Assembly (NCBI GenBank): GCA_937899415.1
Contig: CALBPI010000085.1
Location: 1-57,792 of the forward strand
Length of the DNA stretch: 57,792 bases
Direction: 5' to 3'
From: an uncultured Gammaproteobacteria bacterium
GTDB taxonomy: Bacteria > Pseudomonadota > Gammaproteobacteria > Steroidobacterales > Woeseiaceae
The position numbers were made by a program, and so were the translations under genes. Positions 8,772 through 16,865 of this stretch are shown piece by piece (position 1 is the first letter of the stretch; each line of letters starts with the position of its first letter). A model generated the notes under the pieces. It was not told the origin of the DNA, made no database searches, and was given only the letters and a program-made list of their open reading frames with translations.

Positions 8772-8923
8772 GGTCTGCTCCTTAAAAACGAGGGTGCCTG
8801 CGTTCGAGGCAGATTTAGTCTGCACCCGCCGCTCCGCAAGTTGTGTCGGGCTTCGTCAAGATTCGTCAAGCCTGCCGCGCCCTGCTAGCCTGCGGCCTCT
8901 CGCCCTGCCCGGAGACGCTGCCC

Positions 8924-9364
8924 ATGCAGTACCTGCACACGATGATCCGCGTCAGCGACCTCGACGCTTCACTGGATTTCTATTGCGACAAGCTCGGGCT
9001 GGTCGAGGTCAATCGCTATGAGAATGAGGGCGGCCGCTTCACGCTGGCCTTTCTGGCCGCACCCGAGGACGTCGAGCTCGCGCTTGAGCGCAAGGCACCG
9101 CTCATCGAGCTGACCTACAACTGGGATACCGAGGACTACTCGGGTGGCCGCAACTTCGGGCACCTGGCATTTCGGGTCGACGACATTTACGGCCTCTGCC
9201 AGCGCCTCGCAGATGCCGGTATCACGATCAACCGGCCACCACGCGACGGGCGAATGGCCTTCGTTCGCTCCCCTGACGGCATTTCCATTGAGTTGCTGCA
9301 GAAGGGCGCGTCTCTGGCTCAGGCCGAGCCCTGGGCCTCGATGGAGAACACGGGCAGCTGGTAG
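8924..9364 (+). CDS. gloA: Lactoylglutathione lyase (glyoxalase I)
   Basis: 146 residues. It converts the methylglyoxal-glutathione hemithioacetal to S-lactoylglutathione. The start [10 protein letters not shown] and the segment [10 protein letters not shown] match the E. coli-type enzyme closely. The four metal ligands are all present: H5, E62, H80 and E123. ATG 8924 is preceded by GGAG nine bases upstream. Upstream codons in the same frame lack conserved sequence. It stands alone: divergent from the Spy-like gene and 51 bp before the M48 gene. Confidence 0.9.
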
Positions 9365-9415: not shown

Positions 9416-10963
9416 ATGACAACACGCGCGCGCATCCGCACGGGACTGAGCATCGCCGCAGCCGCACTGGCGCTGCCGGGCTGTGTGACCAATCCCGTGA
9501 CCGGCCGCTCCGAGCTCACCATTATTTCGGCCCAGCAGGAAGTGGCCATGGGTGCCAATGCCTACGCGCCCATGCAACAGTCGCAGGGCGGGCAGTTTCG
9601 CCTCGACCCGGCTGTCGGCGAATACGTCGCGCGCGTGGGCCAGAAGATGGCCGATGTCAGCGACCGCGACCTGCCCTACGAATTCGTCGTCCTAAATAAC
9701 GGCGTGCCCAATGCCTGGGCGCTGCCGGGCGGCAAGATCGCCATCAACCGCGGTTTGTTGCTCGAGATGGACAGTGAGGCCGAACTCGCCGCCGTGCTGG
9801 GCCACGAGGTCGTGCACGCCGCGGCGAAGCACAGCGTGCGCCAGATGCAGCGCGGCATGTTGCTGCAGGCGCTTGTCGTCGGCACGGCGGTCGTCACGAG
9901 CGACTCCGACTACGGCCAACTTGCGGCGGGCGCGGCTAATGTGGGCGCCAGCCTGTTGACCTCGGCCTACAGTCGCGACGCCGAGCGCGATGCCGACCTC
10001 TACGGCATGGATTACATGGACCGCGCCGGCTACGACCCGCAGGGCGCAGTCGACCTGCAGCGCACATTCCTCGCCTTATCGGCGAATCGCCCGAGTTCAG
10101 GCCCCAGCCTGTTCGCAAGCCACCCGCCGTCAGCCGAACGTTTGGCTGCGAATACGGCCAAGGCGCAGCAACTGCCCGCGGGCGGCATCGTCGGGCGCGA
10201 CAGTTACGCGGCGGCGATGCGCACACTCACGGAAACAGCGCCGGCTTTCGAGCGCTACGACGCCGGGCGCAAGGCGCTATCCGAGAAAAAATACGACACG
10301 GCGATGCAGCACGCCCGTGCGGCCATCTTCGCCGTGCCGGCCGAAGCCAGCTTCCATGGCCTGGCCGGTGACATCGAACTGATGCGCAACGACACGTCGG
10401 ACGCGATCACGCACTACACGCGCGCGCTTGATCGCGACGCCACCTTCTTCTACTACCACCTGCAACGCGGCATCGCGCGCGAGCGCCGCGGCGCGCTCGA
10501 CGGCGCCAAGGTCGACCTCGAAAACAGCCTGCGGCTCTTCGAGACCGCGCCCGCGCAATACACGCTGGGCAAGATCGCGCTGGCACAGCGCAACACGGGC
10601 GAGGCCAGGCAGCGCTTCGCCGCCGCTGCGCAGTCGCCTGGCGACGTGGGCCTGGCCGCGCGCGGCGAGCTCATGCGCCTCGACCTCGCCAACAACCCGG
10701 GGCAATACATCAATGTCCGCACAGGCACGGACGACTCGGGCCAGCTGCTCGTGCGCGTCGAGAACCCGAACCCGCTAGCCGTACGCGGCCTCGTGTTCCG
10801 GATCCGCTATCTCGACAGCGCGAACCAGGTGCGCGACATCCAGCGCACGCTCAACGGCACGCTTTCCGCGGGCACAGGCACAACACTCTCAACGGGCCTG
10901 GGCCCATTCACGAGCGCACAACAATTCGAGGTCACGCTGGTAAGCGCGGCCCTCGCTGAGTAA
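9416..10963 (+). CDS. M48-family metalloprotease lipoprotein with TPR region
   Basis: 515 residues. The signal peptide ends in the lipobox LPGC with Cys23 as the lipidated residue. The zinc motif HEVVH is at 130-134, and a third ligand E190 lies in RDAERDAD. The C-terminal part (about 285-420) consists of TPR-like helices. This matches the BepA/YfgC and LoiP kind of periplasmic M48 protease, which helps quality control of outer-membrane proteins. GGGGGAG precedes the ATG. Only 25 bp separate it from the next gene, so it probably leads the operon 9416-14891. Confidence 0.85.
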   Translation: MTTRARIRTGLSIAAAALALPGCVTNPVTGRSELTIISAQQEVAMGANAYAPMQQSQGGQFRLDPAVGEYVARVGQKMADVSDRDLPYEFVVLNNGVPNAWALPGGKIAINRGLLLEMDSEAELAAVLGHEVVHAAAKHSVRQMQRGMLLQALVVGTAVVTSDSDYGQLAAGAANVGASLLTSAYSRDAERDADLYGMDYMDRAGYDPQGAVDLQRTFLALSANRPSSGPSLFASHPPSAERLAANTAKAQQLPAGGIVGRDSYAAAMRTLTETAPAFERYDAGRKALSEKKYDTAMQHARAAIFAVPAEASFHGLAGDIELMRNDTSDAITHYTRALDRDATFFYYHLQRGIARERRGALDGAKVDLENSLRLFETAPAQYTLGKIALAQRNTGEARQRFAAAAQSPGDVGLAARGELMRLDLANNPGQYINVRTGTDDSGQLLVRVENPNPLAVRGLVFRIRYLDSANQVRDIQRTLNGTLSAGTGTTLSTGLGPFTSAQQFEVTLVSAALAE

Positions 10964-10988
10964 CACACAAACCAACAGGGGAATCACC

Positions 10989-12158
10989 ATGGCGCAGTCT
11001 CCAATGCAGTACCTGGATAGGGCACTGGGTAAGCTACGCGACCTCGGGCTCATGCCTGAGAAAACCGAAGAGGCGCCCGTCATCGCGCTCATTGAGCGCA
11101 TCAGCGACCTCGACCCGGACCGGACGCTGGCCATCGCGCGCACGCTCAACCAGGCCTCGCTGTTCAACACCGTGGTCCGCGAGCAGATCGAAGCCATGCG
11201 TATCGGCGAGCGCTACGAGGACATCACAGGCGCATTCAACAGCATCCGTGACGACGCGCGCAGCATGGTGGAGCAGCTCGATGACGGCAAAATCGACCTC
11301 TGGGAGCGCGCCCAGAACGTATGGATGAAGGTGTCGCGCGGCGACATCCCGTCCCGCTTCAACAAGATCAAGGAGACCTACCTCGAGGTGGCCGCCGACT
11401 CGCGCGACCAGATCGAACGCGAGCGCATCATCCTCGACGCCTACCGCGACTTCCGCGGCGCACTCAAGGAATCCGAAGTGCTTTCGCTGCAGGTTCTGAA
11501 GACGGCCACGGAGAAGCTCGACACGCAAAAAGAAGCCCTGGCGTCGGCGGCCAAGGCGATCGATGAATCGAACACCGAGGACCGCGAGGCGCAGGCCAAA
11601 CTCGAGCTCAAGCGCGACGCCGAATTGCGCCGCCTGCAGCTCGTCGACGAGCGCTACCAGATCGCCAAAGACCTGGCCGACAATCTGACCATCTCCTACA
11701 ACACAAGCGAGACAGTCATGGCGCGGCTGCTGCAAACCACACACGCCAAAGAGCGCGTCTACTCGCAGGCCGTGACCTTCTTCGGCACCAACGAAACGGT
11801 GTTCACCGCACTGGCTGCATCGTTCACGGGTTTACACGGTCTGCACGAGGCGACGGAGACGCTCAACGCCATGAAGGAAGGCATCTCCGAGAGCCTCGAG
11901 GTGCTCGCCGAAGTGGGCGGCAAGGTCCAGGAGGAAGCCGTGAAAGCGGGCTACGGCCCAACCATTCGCGCAGACGCTGTGAAGGCGCTCGTCGACTCGG
12001 TCGTGAACTTCCAGGAACGCTCCGCGCAGCTCATCGAAGAGGCGCGGCAGGCCTCGACACGCAACGCCGAAGAAGTGCGGCTCGCGGTCGAGGACGGCAA
12101 GCGGCGCATGACGGAGCTGGCCAACCGCGGCCAGGGCCTGACGCTGCAGGCGGACTGA
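10989..12158 (+). CDS. Soluble coiled-coil protein, TelA-like in layout
   Basis: 389 residues, with no signal peptide or membrane helix, and highly charged and helical throughout, with coiled-coil stretches at about 130-230 and 340-389. The overall pattern (a long helical core with ALKESEVLSLQVLKTATEKL and later ETVMARLLQTTHAKERVY) recalls the toxic-anion-resistance TelA group, but I cannot confirm the family. The ATG has AGGGGA upstream. Together with the next two genes it makes a set of coiled-coil proteins of unknown role. Function is not assigned. Confidence 0.6.
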   Translation: MAQSPMQYLDRALGKLRDLGLMPEKTEEAPVIALIERISDLDPDRTLAIARTLNQASLFNTVVREQIEAMRIGERYEDITGAFNSIRDDARSMVEQLDDGKIDLWERAQNVWMKVSRGDIPSRFNKIKETYLEVAADSRDQIERERIILDAYRDFRGALKESEVLSLQVLKTATEKLDTQKEALASAAKAIDESNTEDREAQAKLELKRDAELRRLQLVDERYQIAKDLADNLTISYNTSETVMARLLQTTHAKERVYSQAVTFFGTNETVFTALAASFTGLHGLHEATETLNAMKEGISESLEVLAEVGGKVQEEAVKAGYGPTIRADAVKALVDSVVNFQERSAQLIEEARQASTRNAEEVRLAVEDGKRRMTELANRGQGLTLQAD

Positions 12159-12165
12159 CCGACCC

Positions 12166-13464
12166 GTGAACACCCCCGCCCCTGTGCCGGTCGACGAGAA
12201 CGTCGGCCTCGGCAACGTCCTGCTGGCCATGGACGTGGTCGACACGCTGCGCCACGAGCAGCGTGTCGTCTCGGAGGCGTTGGGTGAGGAAGCCCGCGAA
12301 CAGGCGCTCGTAAACCGCGTGCGCCGCGCCTACCGGGCGCAGGGCATCGAGGTCAGCGACGCGCTGATTGCAGAAGGCGTCGCCAAGCTCAAGGAACAGC
12401 AGTTCGACTACACGCCACCCCCACCGGGCCTTGGCACAGGACTCGCCAAAGCCTGGATCAACCGCGGCCGAATTGGCACAGGGCTGGCCGCCGTCGCGCT
12501 GCTCGTGGGTGTTATCGGTAGCGGCTGGTGGGGCTTCGTGGAACGTCCGGCGCAGAAGCGCCTGGCCACACTCGTCTCGTCCACGGACGCGGGCATCGCC
12601 GACGCCACGCGCCAGCTCACGTTGCTCGAGGAGCGGCGCAAGACACTGGCCGCGCGCATCGAGACCGAGCGGAATGCGCGCACGCCGCAGCCCGCGCAGG
12701 CCGCAGTGACGACCGAGCTCGACAACGCCACCCAAGACCTGGCGAACGCCGCCTCGGCACTGACACAAGCGGCAACCTTCGCCCAGGTGGCCCGTAACCG
12801 CGAGCCCGAAAACAAGGCAATGGCGCAGTCGCGCAGCGACCAGCTCACGCGGCAACGCGTGCTGTTGACCACGGCCGGCAACGAACTCGGCAATGCCGAG
12901 CGCGCGCTGGGTGGCCTCGACGCGCTGCGGACCTTGCCCGAGACCATCACGACCCTGCGCGACGAGGCGCTTGCCGCGGCGGCCACCGGAGACGCGCGCA
13001 CGCGCATTGGCAACACGGCGTCCGATGCGCTCTCGGCGCTCAGCCGCGGCGAGGCCAGCCTGGCGCAAACGGGCGTGTCGAGCCTGCGCAGCATGATCGA
13101 GATGCTGCAGCAGGAGCTTGAGGTGCGCATCGTGTCGCGCCCGGGCGTGCTCTCGGGCGTCATTCGCACGCCCAACGACAACCGGCGCATCAACAACTAC
13201 TACCTCGTCGTTGAAGCCGTCGACGGCGCGGGCAGCCCCGCACGGCTCGCCATCGAATCTGAGGAAGACGGCACGACGCGTACCGTGGCGCTCTGGGCCG
13301 CGCGCGTTTCCGAGTCGACCTTCAACGGTGTGCGACGAGACAAACAGGACGACGGGATCATTCAGAACGATGCCGCGGGCGCCAAGCCGCGCGGCCACCT
13401 GGAGATTGACTGGTCGCTGCCGCGCTCGGGCGGCTTCATTCACACCTGGGAGAACCCGCGGTGA
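12166..13464 (+). CDS. Single-pass membrane coiled-coil protein, DUF6384-like
   Basis: 432 residues from a GTG start, seven bases after the previous stop. The cytoplasmic N-terminal part (about 1-95, with LLAMDVVDTLRHEQ) resembles the DUF6384 family. One membrane helix follows (about 105-125), then a long helical region (about 130-310). A beta-rich C-terminal domain (about 315-432) has the pattern NNYYLVVEAVD...LAIESEEDG. The topology suggests a membrane anchor that links a cytoplasmic helix to an outer domain, or the reverse. Function is unknown. Confidence 0.6.
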   Translation: MNTPAPVPVDENVGLGNVLLAMDVVDTLRHEQRVVSEALGEEAREQALVNRVRRAYRAQGIEVSDALIAEGVAKLKEQQFDYTPPPPGLGTGLAKAWINRGRIGTGLAAVALLVGVIGSGWWGFVERPAQKRLATLVSSTDAGIADATRQLTLLEERRKTLAARIETERNARTPQPAQAAVTTELDNATQDLANAASALTQAATFAQVARNREPENKAMAQSRSDQLTRQRVLLTTAGNELGNAERALGGLDALRTLPETITTLRDEALAAAATGDARTRIGNTASDALSALSRGEASLAQTGVSSLRSMIEMLQQELEVRIVSRPGVLSGVIRTPNDNRRINNYYLVVEAVDGAGSPARLAIESEEDGTTRTVALWAARVSESTFNGVRRDKQDDGIIQNDAAGAKPRGHLEIDWSLPRSGGFIHTWENPR

Positions 13465-14891
13465 GTTCCGGGCGCGAGTTGTTACAAGCCATCGAGGGCG
13501 CGCTCGGCGAGAGCCGCACGGCGTTCCGTGCGCTTGATCTGGAGATGCAACGCCGCAGCGCGGCGCTGGGCCGCACACGCGGGCGTGAGGCCTCGCTGTA
13601 CCGTCAGCTCGCAGCATTACGGCTGGCCGATGTGGCCGACGGCGAATTCGGCGAATCGATGTCGCGCGCCGAGCGCCAGGCCGCGGCTATTCTCGATCGC
13701 CGCGACGCGAGTGCGGCCGAGCTCAACACGCGTATCGATGCTGCCGAAGCCGAACTGGCCGGGCACGAGACCGAACGAGAAGGCGCGGCCACGACGCGCG
13801 ACGAGGCGGCCCTCGCGCTGGACGCACTGCTCGATGACGTCGACACGAAGCTCAGTGCCAACCCGGATTACCAGCAGCGCGTCGCCGACGTGCAGCAAGC
13901 CATCGAGACGGCAGCCAACGCGGCGGCCAAGACGGCCGAGGTCGAGGCGCGCCGTGACGACAAGCGCCAGCCGTTTGATGCCGACCCGCTGTTCGTCTAC
14001 CTCTGGGCGCGCCGCTACGGCACACCCGACTACCGCGCCAACCTCATCGCGCGTTTCTTTGACCGGCTCGTCGCCCGTCATGTGCGCTATGAGCCCGCGC
14101 GCCGCAAGTACTACGCCCTCACGGAAATCCCGCGGCGGCTGCGCGCGCACACCGCGCGCATGGAAGCGGCGGCCGAAACTGCGGCAGAGTCCCTGTCCGA
14201 CTTCGAACGTGACGCCGACCTCGCCGCGGGTGCTGAGCCGGTTGAAGACGCGCTTGAGGCCGCGCAGGCGCGCTGCGACGGCATCGATGCCACGATCGAG
14301 GCTAACGAATCCGCGCTCAACACGCTCTACGCCGAACGCGATGCGTTTGCCGAGGCCCGCGACCCGCACTGGGCCGAAGCCATGGCGCTGCTCGACAAGG
14401 CCATGCGCGCAGAACCCATCGGCGAGTTACGTCGTGAGGCGCTGATGACACCCGCCATTGAGGACGACGACCTCGTGGATTCACTGGAGGCACTGCTCGA
14501 GCAGCAGGAAGAACTGGGCGGCTATCTCGAAGACCACCGTGACCTGCACGCCAAGCGCGCACGACGCGTGGACTCGCTCTCCGCCATTCGTAGGCGCTAC
14601 AAGTCGAAGCGCTTCGATTCACCCCACAGCCGCATTCGCGACCGTCGCGAAATCGAGGACATGCTGGCGGGCTTCCTGGCGGGACTCGTGACCAGCGACG
14701 GCTTGTGGCGCGCCATCCGCCATGCACAGCGCTTCAAGCGCCCGCCCAAGACGACCTCGGGCGGCCTGCCCCGGGGCGTCAAAATCCGCTTCCCACGCAG
14801 CGGCGGGGGGGGAGGCAGTTTCGGTGGCGGCAGCTTCGGCGGCGGCGGCGGTTTCGGCGGCGGCGGCTTCAGCAGCTCGGGCGGTTTCTAA
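13461..14891 (+). CDS. Coiled-coil protein with Gly/Phe/Ser-rich tail, unknown function
   Basis: 476 residues. The GTG start overlaps the previous stop by 4 bp (GTGA), so translation is probably coupled. It has no signal peptide or membrane helix. Long coiled coils occupy about 1-170 and 235-390; between them is a compact segment, FDADPLFVYLWARRYGTPDY. The last 30 residues are almost only Gly, Ser and Phe (FGGGSFGGGGGF type). Such tails are known from TPM-domain/YgcG proteins, but no TPM domain is present. The family is not recognised. Confidence 0.6.
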   Translation: MSSGRELLQAIEGALGESRTAFRALDLEMQRRSAALGRTRGREASLYRQLAALRLADVADGEFGESMSRAERQAAAILDRRDASAAELNTRIDAAEAELAGHETEREGAATTRDEAALALDALLDDVDTKLSANPDYQQRVADVQQAIETAANAAAKTAEVEARRDDKRQPFDADPLFVYLWARRYGTPDYRANLIARFFDRLVARHVRYEPARRKYYALTEIPRRLRAHTARMEAAAETAAESLSDFERDADLAAGAEPVEDALEAAQARCDGIDATIEANESALNTLYAERDAFAEARDPHWAEAMALLDKAMRAEPIGELRREALMTPAIEDDDLVDSLEALLEQQEELGGYLEDHRDLHAKRARRVDSLSAIRRRYKSKRFDSPHSRIRDRREIEDMLAGFLAGLVTSDGLWRAIRHAQRFKRPPKTTSGGLPRGVKIRFPRSGGGGGSFGGGSFGGGGGFGGGGFSSSGGF

Positions 14892-15251: not shown

Positions 15252-16865
15252 TCAGTCTGCAGCCGGCCGCGTGTCGCCGTTGAGCGGTGTCACTGATGCG
15301 GACTTGGGCGCACTGGGCTCGGCGGGCTTGGCTTCGGCCTTGGCTGCCTTGGGCTTTGCCGCTTTCTTCTTTGTCTTGCGCTTCGCAGCCGTTTTGCTGG
15401 CGGGCTTGACCGTGGGCTTCTCGACAGGCTTCTCAACAGGCTTCTTCGCCGCGGCACCGACCGTAGCCGCGTACATTTCGTCGAACGATTCCTGCAGGCA
15501 GGACATGTAGAAGGCCGGGTCCGGCATCATCTCGCGGCAGGCCACGATGCTGATCGCGATCATGCCGTTGTAGCTGACGACGGGGTGGAACAGGCCGACA
15601 CCGTGGACCACGGGGCCCATGCCGAAATTAGCCACCATCTTCGAACCCATCGAGTACAGCGGCACGTTGACGCCGGGCACGTTACTGATCACGGTGTTGA
15701 AGACCGGTTTCACTGACTCGGCCATGCGCATGCGGCCGTAGGCACGCACCGCGAGACCGGCCACCGTCGAGGGCAGGAAGTCTGCAGCGCTCGCCATAAG
15801 ATCGGGCCCGAGCGTGAAGGTCATCTTTTTGGCGTTGTCGCTGCCTTCGTGTACCGCGAGCAGGCGCTCGACAGGATCCTCGATGTCGCTGCGCACGGGC
15901 AGGCTCATGGCTGCGACCAGGTTGCCCTCGGCGCGTATCTTGTCCTGTGGGCGAATCGACATGGGCGCCATCGCCACCAGTGATTCTTCGGGCAGCTCAT
16001 GCTTGGCCTGCAGGTACTTGCGTAGTGCGCCGCCGCAGATGGCGACGACGACGTCATTGAGCTTGATGCCTTCGCGCGAATTCTTGATGGCCTTGATGTC
16101 ATCAAGCTTGAACGCCAGCGCATCGAACACGCGGTTTGGTGACACGTTGTCGTTGAAGCGCGTACGCGGCACCGGCGGCGTCGGTTTGATCTGCTTGGTG
16201 GCCATGCCGCCGGCCAGCCTGCCCAGCGAGGGCAGCGCGCGCGCCGCCGTGCGGGCCAAACGAACGGGACCTGTCGCTGTGCGCTGCGCCGTGCGGGCGA
16301 GCAGCTCCAGGCCTGTGGGCTGGCGCTCAGGCACCCAGCGACCCGAATCGTCGTTGACCTCGGCGTCGGGCGTCGGGTCGTGCAGGGCCGCCGCAATCTC
16401 GGCGCCCGACACGCCGTCAATGGCGGCGTGGTGGATTTTGCTCACGACGGCGAAGCTGCCCGGCGGAATGCCATCGACGGCATCGAGGCCCTCAATGACC
16501 GTCACTTCCCAAAGCGGGCGATTCATATCGAGTGCACGAGCATGCAGGCGCGCGGCCTGGATGCAGAGTTGGCGCCAGTCACCGGGCTGCGGCAGCGCGA
16601 TGTGCCGAATGTGGAATTCGAGGTCGAAATCCGGGTCTTCGATCCAGTACGGATGGTCGAGCGACAGTGGCACGCGGGCGAGGCGTTGCCGGAACACACG
16701 CGCGCGGTGCAGTCGCTGCTCATAGAAGGACAGGATGTCCTTGAAGCGCACGTGCCCGCCGGGGGCCGTCGACTGATCGTAGATACAAAGGCTGCCGATG
16801 TGCATCGGCGTGTTGGTCGTTTCGAGGTAAAGGAACGACGCGTCGAGACCGGTGAGCTGGTGCAT
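15252..16865 (-). CDS. Wax ester synthase/diacylglycerol acyltransferase (WS/DGAT)
   Basis: 537 residues. The active-site motif HHxxxDG is present as HHAAIDG at 145-151, with the N-terminal signature MHQLTGLDASFLYLET and the late motif ISNVPGV. Such enzymes join a fatty acyl-CoA to a fatty alcohol or diacylglycerol to make storage lipid. The catalytic part ends near residue 465; the last 70 residues are rich in Lys, Ala and Pro (KPVEKPVEKP, AAKRKTKKKAAKPKAAK), a tail not needed by the fold. The gene stands alone, 99 bp after the sensor kinase gene on the same strand. Confidence 0.87.
   Translation of the reverse strand: MHQLTGLDASFLYLETTNTPMHIGSLCIYDQSTAPGGHVRFKDILSFYEQRLHRARVFRQRLARVPLSLDHPYWIEDPDFDLEFHIRHIALPQPGDWRQLCIQAARLHARALDMNRPLWEVTVIEGLDAVDGIPPGSFAVVSKIHHAAIDGVSGAEIAAALHDPTPDAEVNDDSGRWVPERQPTGLELLARTAQRTATGPVRLARTAARALPSLGRLAGGMATKQIKPTPPVPRTRFNDNVSPNRVFDALAFKLDDIKAIKNSREGIKLNDVVVAICGGALRKYLQAKHELPEESLVAMAPMSIRPQDKIRAEGNLVAAMSLPVRSDIEDPVERLLAVHEGSDNAKKMTFTLGPDLMASAADFLPSTVAGLAVRAYGRMRMAESVKPVFNTVISNVPGVNVPLYSMGSKMVANFGMGPVVHGVGLFHPVVSYNGMIAISIVACREMMPDPAFYMSCLQESFDEMYAATVGAAAKKPVEKPVEKPTVKPASKTAAKRKTKKKAAKPKAAKAEAKPAEPSAPKSASVTPLNGDTRPAAD

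Follow-up and report, generated by a model that had tools for sequence, protein, structure and literature searches.

Several described systems resemble parts of the locus studied here. In the tails of SSB and FtsZ, a linker whose length is free leads to a fixed peptide with a free end, and this peptide docks partners; the SSB tip is acidic and ends in Phe. A passage of a published account describes many SSB-interacting proteins as docking on the C-terminal tip of SSB (PMC10164576). The DUF6384 family (PF19911) is listed in Pfam without a stated function, and no mention of it was found among 5.39 million open-licence papers. We analysed a 57,792-nucleotide stretch from an uncultured gammaproteobacterium of the Woeseiaceae (contig CALBPI010000085.1; hereafter the window), in which four consecutive open reading frames (ORFs) encode an M48 metalloprotease (gene 1), a soluble all-helical protein (A), a DUF6384 membrane protein (B) and a soluble coiled-coil protein with a Gly-rich tail (C), whose C-terminal end reads SGGGGGSFGGGSFGGGGGFGGGGFSSSGGF in the ORF translation. 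An earlier sequence-only reading had described four forward-strand genes spaced by 25, 7 and −4 bp, which the ORF coordinates confirm (Table 1), and had treated all four as one set. The comparison with other genomes shows instead that A-B-C, and not the four genes, is the conserved module.

The A-B-C order and its neighbours

A profile of protein A, scanned against a collection of bacterial and archaeal genomes, retrieved at least 369 relatives, and the best 80 of 369 were kept, which with one viral locus made up 81 A-profile loci. A, B and C stood in this order at 75 of the 81, a count that includes one locus in which the order is masked because the ORF for C was called too long (L080), one with an extra M48 gene further downstream (L051) and three with C truncated at a contig end (L050, L059, L064). 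The remaining six held A alone (L058, L085) or A and B (L069, L098, L101, L126); five of these are cut by a contig end, and the sixth, L126, is phage phiR1-37, where C (gp192) is next in line without having been reported by the profile. An initial genome scan with the single protein B as query found no relative. All 12 genomes later found through B, the window's own included, have A and C around it, gene A being split between contigs in one of them (G506). Six loci of this B-based set presumably lie on the same contigs as A-profile loci, and the two sets were not summed. The distribution of DUF6384 is patchy: 2 of 398 genomes in a sample of the phylum have it and, within the order, 11 of 296, both counts including the own genome. 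Among 82 A rows including the window, the NCBI phylum labels were Pseudomonadota (62), Nitrospirota (5), Thermodesulfobacteriota (5), Campylobacterota (4), Planctomycetota (2) and Myxococcota (2, titled only Deltaproteobacteria), two rows without a label presumably being the window and the phage; since many loci come from metagenome-assembled genomes, single labels may be wrong.

The median gaps within the trio were 19 bp (45 loci) and 10 bp (65 loci), and the trio mostly stands alone: at 45 of 62 loci no same-strand gene lay within 100 bp on either side, as judged by a codon-usage gene caller at loci with both flanks called (loci without the full trio and L080 were left out). No constant fourth gene was found, and recurring neighbour clusters fell nearly all within single lineages, LysM-BON apart. 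When 118 neighbours were scanned against Pfam, the commonest families were LysM-BON (4 loci) and LptF/LptG (4, all of them Arenicella-type loci), and no shared promoter was seen upstream of A in six related loci. The LysM-BON gene, which we take to be Kbp/YgaU-like, lies directly upstream of A in L065, L086, L114 and L121, one from the Paracoccaceae by title and the others gammaproteobacterial; its position is a weak pointer to stress.

Gene 1 is a clear member of Peptidase_M48 (122 bits against a Pfam cut-off of 20.3, E 3.5e-35), with the HExxH motif present as HEVVH and TPR matches under their cut-offs, and the lipoprotein signal suggested for it could be read directly at the N-terminus as an LPGC lipobox. 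Its best NCBIfam match was the BepA equivalog NF052400 at 118.3 bits, far under the cut-off of 570. Relatives at E<1e-100 occurred in 24 of 40 genomes, own included. At the trio loci, an M48 gene was met only twice, once among the 81 A-profile loci (downstream of C in L051) and once among 18 further A-holding loci (divergent near the trio on pNY8709-IMP). Of 11 genomes that carry the trio, 9 have an orthologue of gene 1 (46–57% identity), and in all nine the two lie on different contigs. Around 15 orthologues in relatives, searching by tblastn for 11 other genes of the window gave no hit; three of these stretches are short (3.5–6.5 kb), and in 14 of the 15 genomes no trio was found, G671 alone having both, so that this neighbour count speaks for independence only. 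The own genome holds six M48 genes, and because such genes are common, we estimate that the few loose co-locations with the trio are near chance.

If the four genes did form one functional operon, with the protease processing or regulating the periplasmic domain of B, this would be in line with the 25-bp same-strand spacing, the absence of any predicted forward-strand terminator-like site between gene 1 and A, and the two M48 genes in L051 and on pNY8709-IMP. However, the counts of 1/81 and 1/18, the placement of the orthologue on other contigs in trio carriers and the orthologue loci just described, where none of the 11 window genes lay nearby, make such an operon very unlikely. Given the lack of a terminator, co-transcription may occur in this organism; we regard the M48 lipoprotein protease as probably a bystander that may share a transcript with the trio in this lineage. 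The neighbourhood survey suggested in the sequence-only reading bears that reading out for genes 2–4, which stay together in other genomes so that a refutation it had named, a scattered trio, fails, and goes against it for the M48 gene, which is not kept with them.

Table 1 Features of the locus, with positions in the window.
Feature	Position	Strand	Details
Gene 1, M48 metalloprotease	9416..10963	+	515 aa ORF; LPGC lipobox, TPR-like repeats, HEVVH zinc motif
Gene 2 (A), soluble all-helical protein	10989..12158	+	389 aa ORF
Gene 3 (B), DUF6384 membrane protein	12166..13464	+	432 aa ORF, GTG start
Predicted transmembrane stretch of B, residues 107-125	12484..12540	+	Single hydrophobic stretch
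Conserved C-terminal beta-domain of B, residues 318-428	13117..13449	+	From model and conservation
Gene 4 (C), soluble coiled-coil protein with Gly-rich tail	13461..14891	+	476 aa ORF, GTG start
Low-complexity linker of C, residues 428-469	14742..14867	+	
Tip of C, FSSSGGF	14868..14888	+	Deviating form of consensus F[RK]TGGGF-COOH
Glyoxalase-family gene	8843..9364	+	PF00903, 78.7 bits; 51 bp upstream of gene 1
Wax ester synthase/diacylglycerol acyltransferase gene	15252-16865	-	Directly downstream of C, on the opposite strand to C

Of the genes flanking the four, the glyoxalase-family gene may share a transcript with the M48 gene and is not part of the A-B-C module.

Tree placement, plasmids and phages

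Separate quick trees were built for A, B and C. Window A grouped with seven foreign loci, L046–L052 (Kangiella, Sedimenticola, a Lysobacterales bacterium and an unclassified gammaproteobacterium), with a starred support of 96; window B grouped with the same seven at 76, not starred, and window C with six of them at 99.9, starred, the C of L050 being cut off. Three loci taken as the copies of the window's own family (L103, L115 and L123, presumably of G671, G613 and G514) were placed elsewhere in the trees, away from the window, and a forced grouping of the window with them was rejected for C (approximately unbiased, AU, test p 0.036), a value to be read knowing that the grouping was picked after the A tree was seen and that the window has long end branches. 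As all three window genes group with the same foreign loci and not with those of their own family, the trio probably travels as a unit, with good support from the trees of A and C and weak support from that of B.

Protein A was encoded on 11 of 72,556 plasmid records, at 37–63% identity to the window, the carriers being Pseudomonas (seven), Microvirga, Bradyrhizobium, Methylorubrum and Rhizobium. Nine of the 11 plasmids were examined and all nine carry the complete trio, seven as judged by similarity and two by annotation, with the end of C read for one of the latter two; the A-B-C order is the same on the Pseudomonas, Bradyrhizobium, Microvirga and Methylorubrum megaplasmids. Some genes were observed near plasmid trios: dcd, encoding dCTP deaminase, on three Pseudomonas megaplasmids (L023, L024, L027), genes for a peptidyl-tRNA hydrolase and for a cysteine protease with a StiP domain on two of them (L024, L027), and the type IV CRISPR gene csf2 on two related Pseudomonas plasmids (L132, L133), where it follows C at a distance of about 5 kb.

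Among 50,697 phage records, A was found only in phiR1-37 (two records, one phage), where g190-g191-g192 correspond to A-B-C and do not bear the note ‘phage structural protein’ given to several neighbouring genes. Dolichospermum phage Dfl-JY45 encodes B and C with the TGGGF end kept, and no detectable A. Scans of viral contigs with A profiles or the phage A returned phiR1-37 only, those with a B profile yielded no confirmed match, and tblastn with the phage B and C proteins found phiR1-37 and Dfl-JY45 only. When B was compared with viral models by Foldseek, a single strong match emerged, G4KKD0, whose 440 aa equal the length of phiR1-37 gp191, although the identity of the two is not confirmed. 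In PMC10299810, phiR1-37 is listed as a phage without chimallin, so the chimallin phage nucleus is not the explanation for the phage trio; a passage found in the open literature for phiR1-37 together with g190 concerns the g190 of phage AR9 itself.

The presence of the trio on megaplasmids and in a jumbo phage, of B and C in a second jumbo phage, and its patchiness within the order (the 11 of 296 genomes given above) could suggest an anti-phage or inter-element conflict system acquired by plasmids and phages. We consider this quite unlikely, as the matches obtained with PADLOC were weak (E 0.002–0.1, one per protein), none of them clearly pointing to a known system, and no defence family was among the 25 listed of 143 neighbour families from the 118 neighbours.

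The three proteins and the tip of C

The sequence-only reading had proposed helical or coiled-coil proteins around a one-pass membrane protein with likeness to DUF6384, and this stands: B matches PF19911 in two stretches (319.5 bits against a cut-off of 25), and the single hydrophobic stretch of the trio is in B, with none of membrane-span strength in A or C of the window. The stretch of B exceeds a value of 1.6 in 68 of 76 relatives, compared to 1 of 81 for A, whose maximum 19-residue Kyte-Doolittle mean in the window is 1.03, and 2 of 72 for C. The side N-terminal to the span is the more positive one in 74 of 77 B proteins, and B is therefore predicted to have its N-terminus inside and its C-terminal part in the periplasm. 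Its model (mean pLDDT 89.6) and conservation give a domain order of a conserved, predicted cytosolic N-terminal part, the span, a helical part of variable length and a conserved beta-domain. The B proteins are about 305 or about 420 aa long, with the difference in the predicted periplasmic helical part and the window having the long form, two lengths that bring to mind a two-length ruler. B ends in Trp in 74 of 77 relatives, and the window protein has a short extension beyond this residue. A structural comparison of B using VIA matched helical bundles in rows mainly covering residues 113–276, meaning that the beta-domain was barely tested.

C has no Pfam family above cut-off. Across 73 C proteins (72 complete ones from the A-profile loci plus the window, plasmid and phage forms being left out), the median identity was 31% in the core vs 86% in the last seven residues. 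The Gly/Phe tail noted earlier is present, although the reading that described it had overlooked the near-invariant seven-residue tip in which the C family ends. A linker of 25–101 residues, with 37.5% Gly and 5.8% Phe, is followed by the consensus F[RK]TGGGF: along the tip, F was found in 72/73, R in 42/73 (with K making up most of the rest), T in 70/73, G in 71/73, G in 72/73, G in 66/73 and the final F in 70/73. The exact motif ends 53 of the 73 proteins, whereas it occurred in none of 200 shuffles of the last 60 residues. On plasmids and phages the ends vary more around this form, with FSTSDSF-like ends on the Pseudomonas megaplasmids, FTTGGEI in Methylorubrum, FSSSDSF in phiR1-37 and RVTGGGF in Dfl-JY45. 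A variable linker leading to a conserved C-terminal peptide, i.e. the layout of a docking tip, was found across the 73 C proteins. The titles listed for TGGGF in the open literature look unrelated, and a search there for ‘merozoite surface protein 3b’ with Pseudomonas found nothing.

The tail could also be seen as making C condensate-forming, the tip being merely its last FG-like sticker, and both the Gly and Phe content of the linker and the internal tip-like copies in 5 of the 73 C proteins and in the C of phiR1-37 are compatible with this. A generic sticker, however, would not require a strictly C-terminal position or the Thr at −5 that 70 of 73 proteins have, and the internal copies are rare; a condensate of this type seems unlikely to us.

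A is the most conserved member of the trio, with a median pairwise identity of 65%, and likewise lacks a Pfam family above cut-off. The model is all-helical with a mean pLDDT of 69 and contains a confident long hairpin (119–193/199–299). Kinship of A to TelA, which had been suggested for the trio, was not borne out: window A had no PF05816 match at E<=1, and hhalign comparisons of 18 and of 49 A proteins with five TelA proteins gave probabilities of 0.5% and 0.3%, respectively, from shallow profiles. A TelA gene above the PF05816 cut-off is present elsewhere in the own genome (C68:30563-31417; L045), and in three relatives (L039, L040, L043) TelA is directly followed by an ORF of about 365–375 aa that is alike in the three. 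Nothing joining tellurium resistance, StiP, TelA and coiled-coil was found in the open literature.

Foldseek searches of A and of B against the PDB returned nothing at E<=0.001. With VIA-align, the 15 top-ranking matches to the A model are presumably all ClyA-type alpha-pore formers, led by XaxA (Z 13.6, rmsd 5.6, 276 residues aligned) and compared to Z 10.2 for the best match of another kind, where for helical bundles a Z of up to about 13 may mean no more than a common arrangement. These matches, and NheA among the best of Foldseek for A (E 0.027), would agree with A being an alpha-helical pore former of the ClyA superfamily and the trio a tripartite pore-forming toxin. We find this highly improbable, since A has neither a hydrophobic stretch nor a visible signal peptide and its hairpin tip is charged, the model is weak and without a Foldseek match at the threshold above, the VIA warning for helical bundles applies, and a median identity of 65% is in our judgement unlike toxins. 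Searches of the sequences of solved structures with profiles of A, B and C gave matches that we read as chance, designed-helix or coiled-coil similarity, the best (E 5e-6) being that of the C profile to a de novo protein. In none of the three proteins could a catalytic family be recognised, in agreement with the probably non-metabolic role foreseen for them.

Proposed working and comparison with described systems

The reading we favour, to which we give a probability of roughly 40%, is that A-B-C is an autonomous, horizontally moving module encoding an assembly tethered to the inner membrane, a scaffold or stress module in which the tip of C docks a partner, and that protection or organisation of the envelope under stress is its likeliest purpose. 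Here B would be the anchor. From its conserved N-terminal domain in the cytosol it would cross the membrane once and continue through a helical stalk, variable in length, to the conserved beta-domain in the periplasm, whose probable task is to read or grip the envelope. A and C would come together on the cytosolic face, seated on the part of B that lies there. The linker of C is presumably flexible and would allow the tip to dock into a pocket of its partner, as proposed by analogy to the SSB and FtsZ tails, which share this layout; such docking could recruit the assembly to the membrane or cross-link it there. Information or force might then travel through B, into the periplasm or out of it. 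The sequences show the gene order, the shared tree placement of the window copies, the topology signal and the conserved tip, while the complex, the docking and the stress role are inferred; it is the topology that makes envelope protection the likeliest purpose.

Several observations weigh against this reading. Retaining the best 80 of 369 A relatives favours close homologues, and the AU test did not reject the forced grouping with the own family's copies for B (p 0.17). The tip of the window itself is degenerate (FSSSGGF, not an exact match), and the lack of a detectable A in Dfl-JY45 implies that the tip may have a partner other than A. No envelope-stress gene consistently adjoined the trio among the 118 neighbours. 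In favour of the reading, a degenerate DNA pattern for the tip, followed by TAA or TGA, was found within the order in just 3 of 296 genomes, each time where C ends, and a slightly wider pattern in 0 of 398 genomes of the phylum. These patterns omit TAG, the stop of 33 of 72 C genes, and cover no more than 33 of the 72 C ends and, among the 11 other carriers found through B, 3; other proteins may therefore bear the tip as well, and its restriction to C is supported only in part.

A more far-reaching version, in which A-B-C is a transmembrane machine spread horizontally over several phyla, megaplasmids and giant phages, the heptapeptide of C recruits a client and couples it to a periplasmic sensor, and the jumbo phage copies control the host envelope during infection, is offered tentatively, as we find it rather doubtful. 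For the assembly favoured here, the constant tip would be a direct experimental handle on a module that is otherwise nameless: no family name was found for A or C and B is a domain of unknown function (DUF), yet the three genes keep a fixed order over great distances as well as on plasmids and in a jumbo phage. The separation of the trio from the M48 gene spares later work the wrong partner.

We rate the module as undescribed as a system and as fitting no described kind, while its parts may be remote members of known folds. Gene 1 is like BepA and other M48 lipoproteins in having a lipobox and TPR-like repeats besides its M48 domain, but lies far below the equivalog cut-off and is not constantly linked to the trio. 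A resembles TelA in its all-helical model and length of about 390 aa, without profile similarity to it, and the ClyA superfamily (XaxA, AhlB, ClyA) in a possible long-helix bundle of a low-confidence model, whereas it lacks the hydrophobic insertion segment. B is a member of DUF6384, but the partners A and C and the tip appear in no description found of this family. As in SSB and in FtsZ with its C-terminal conserved peptide, the tail of C consists of a variable low-complexity linker and then a fixed C-terminal peptide; in contrast to the SSB tip, that of C is Gly-rich and basic or neutral, and the analogy is one of mechanism, with no kinship claimed.

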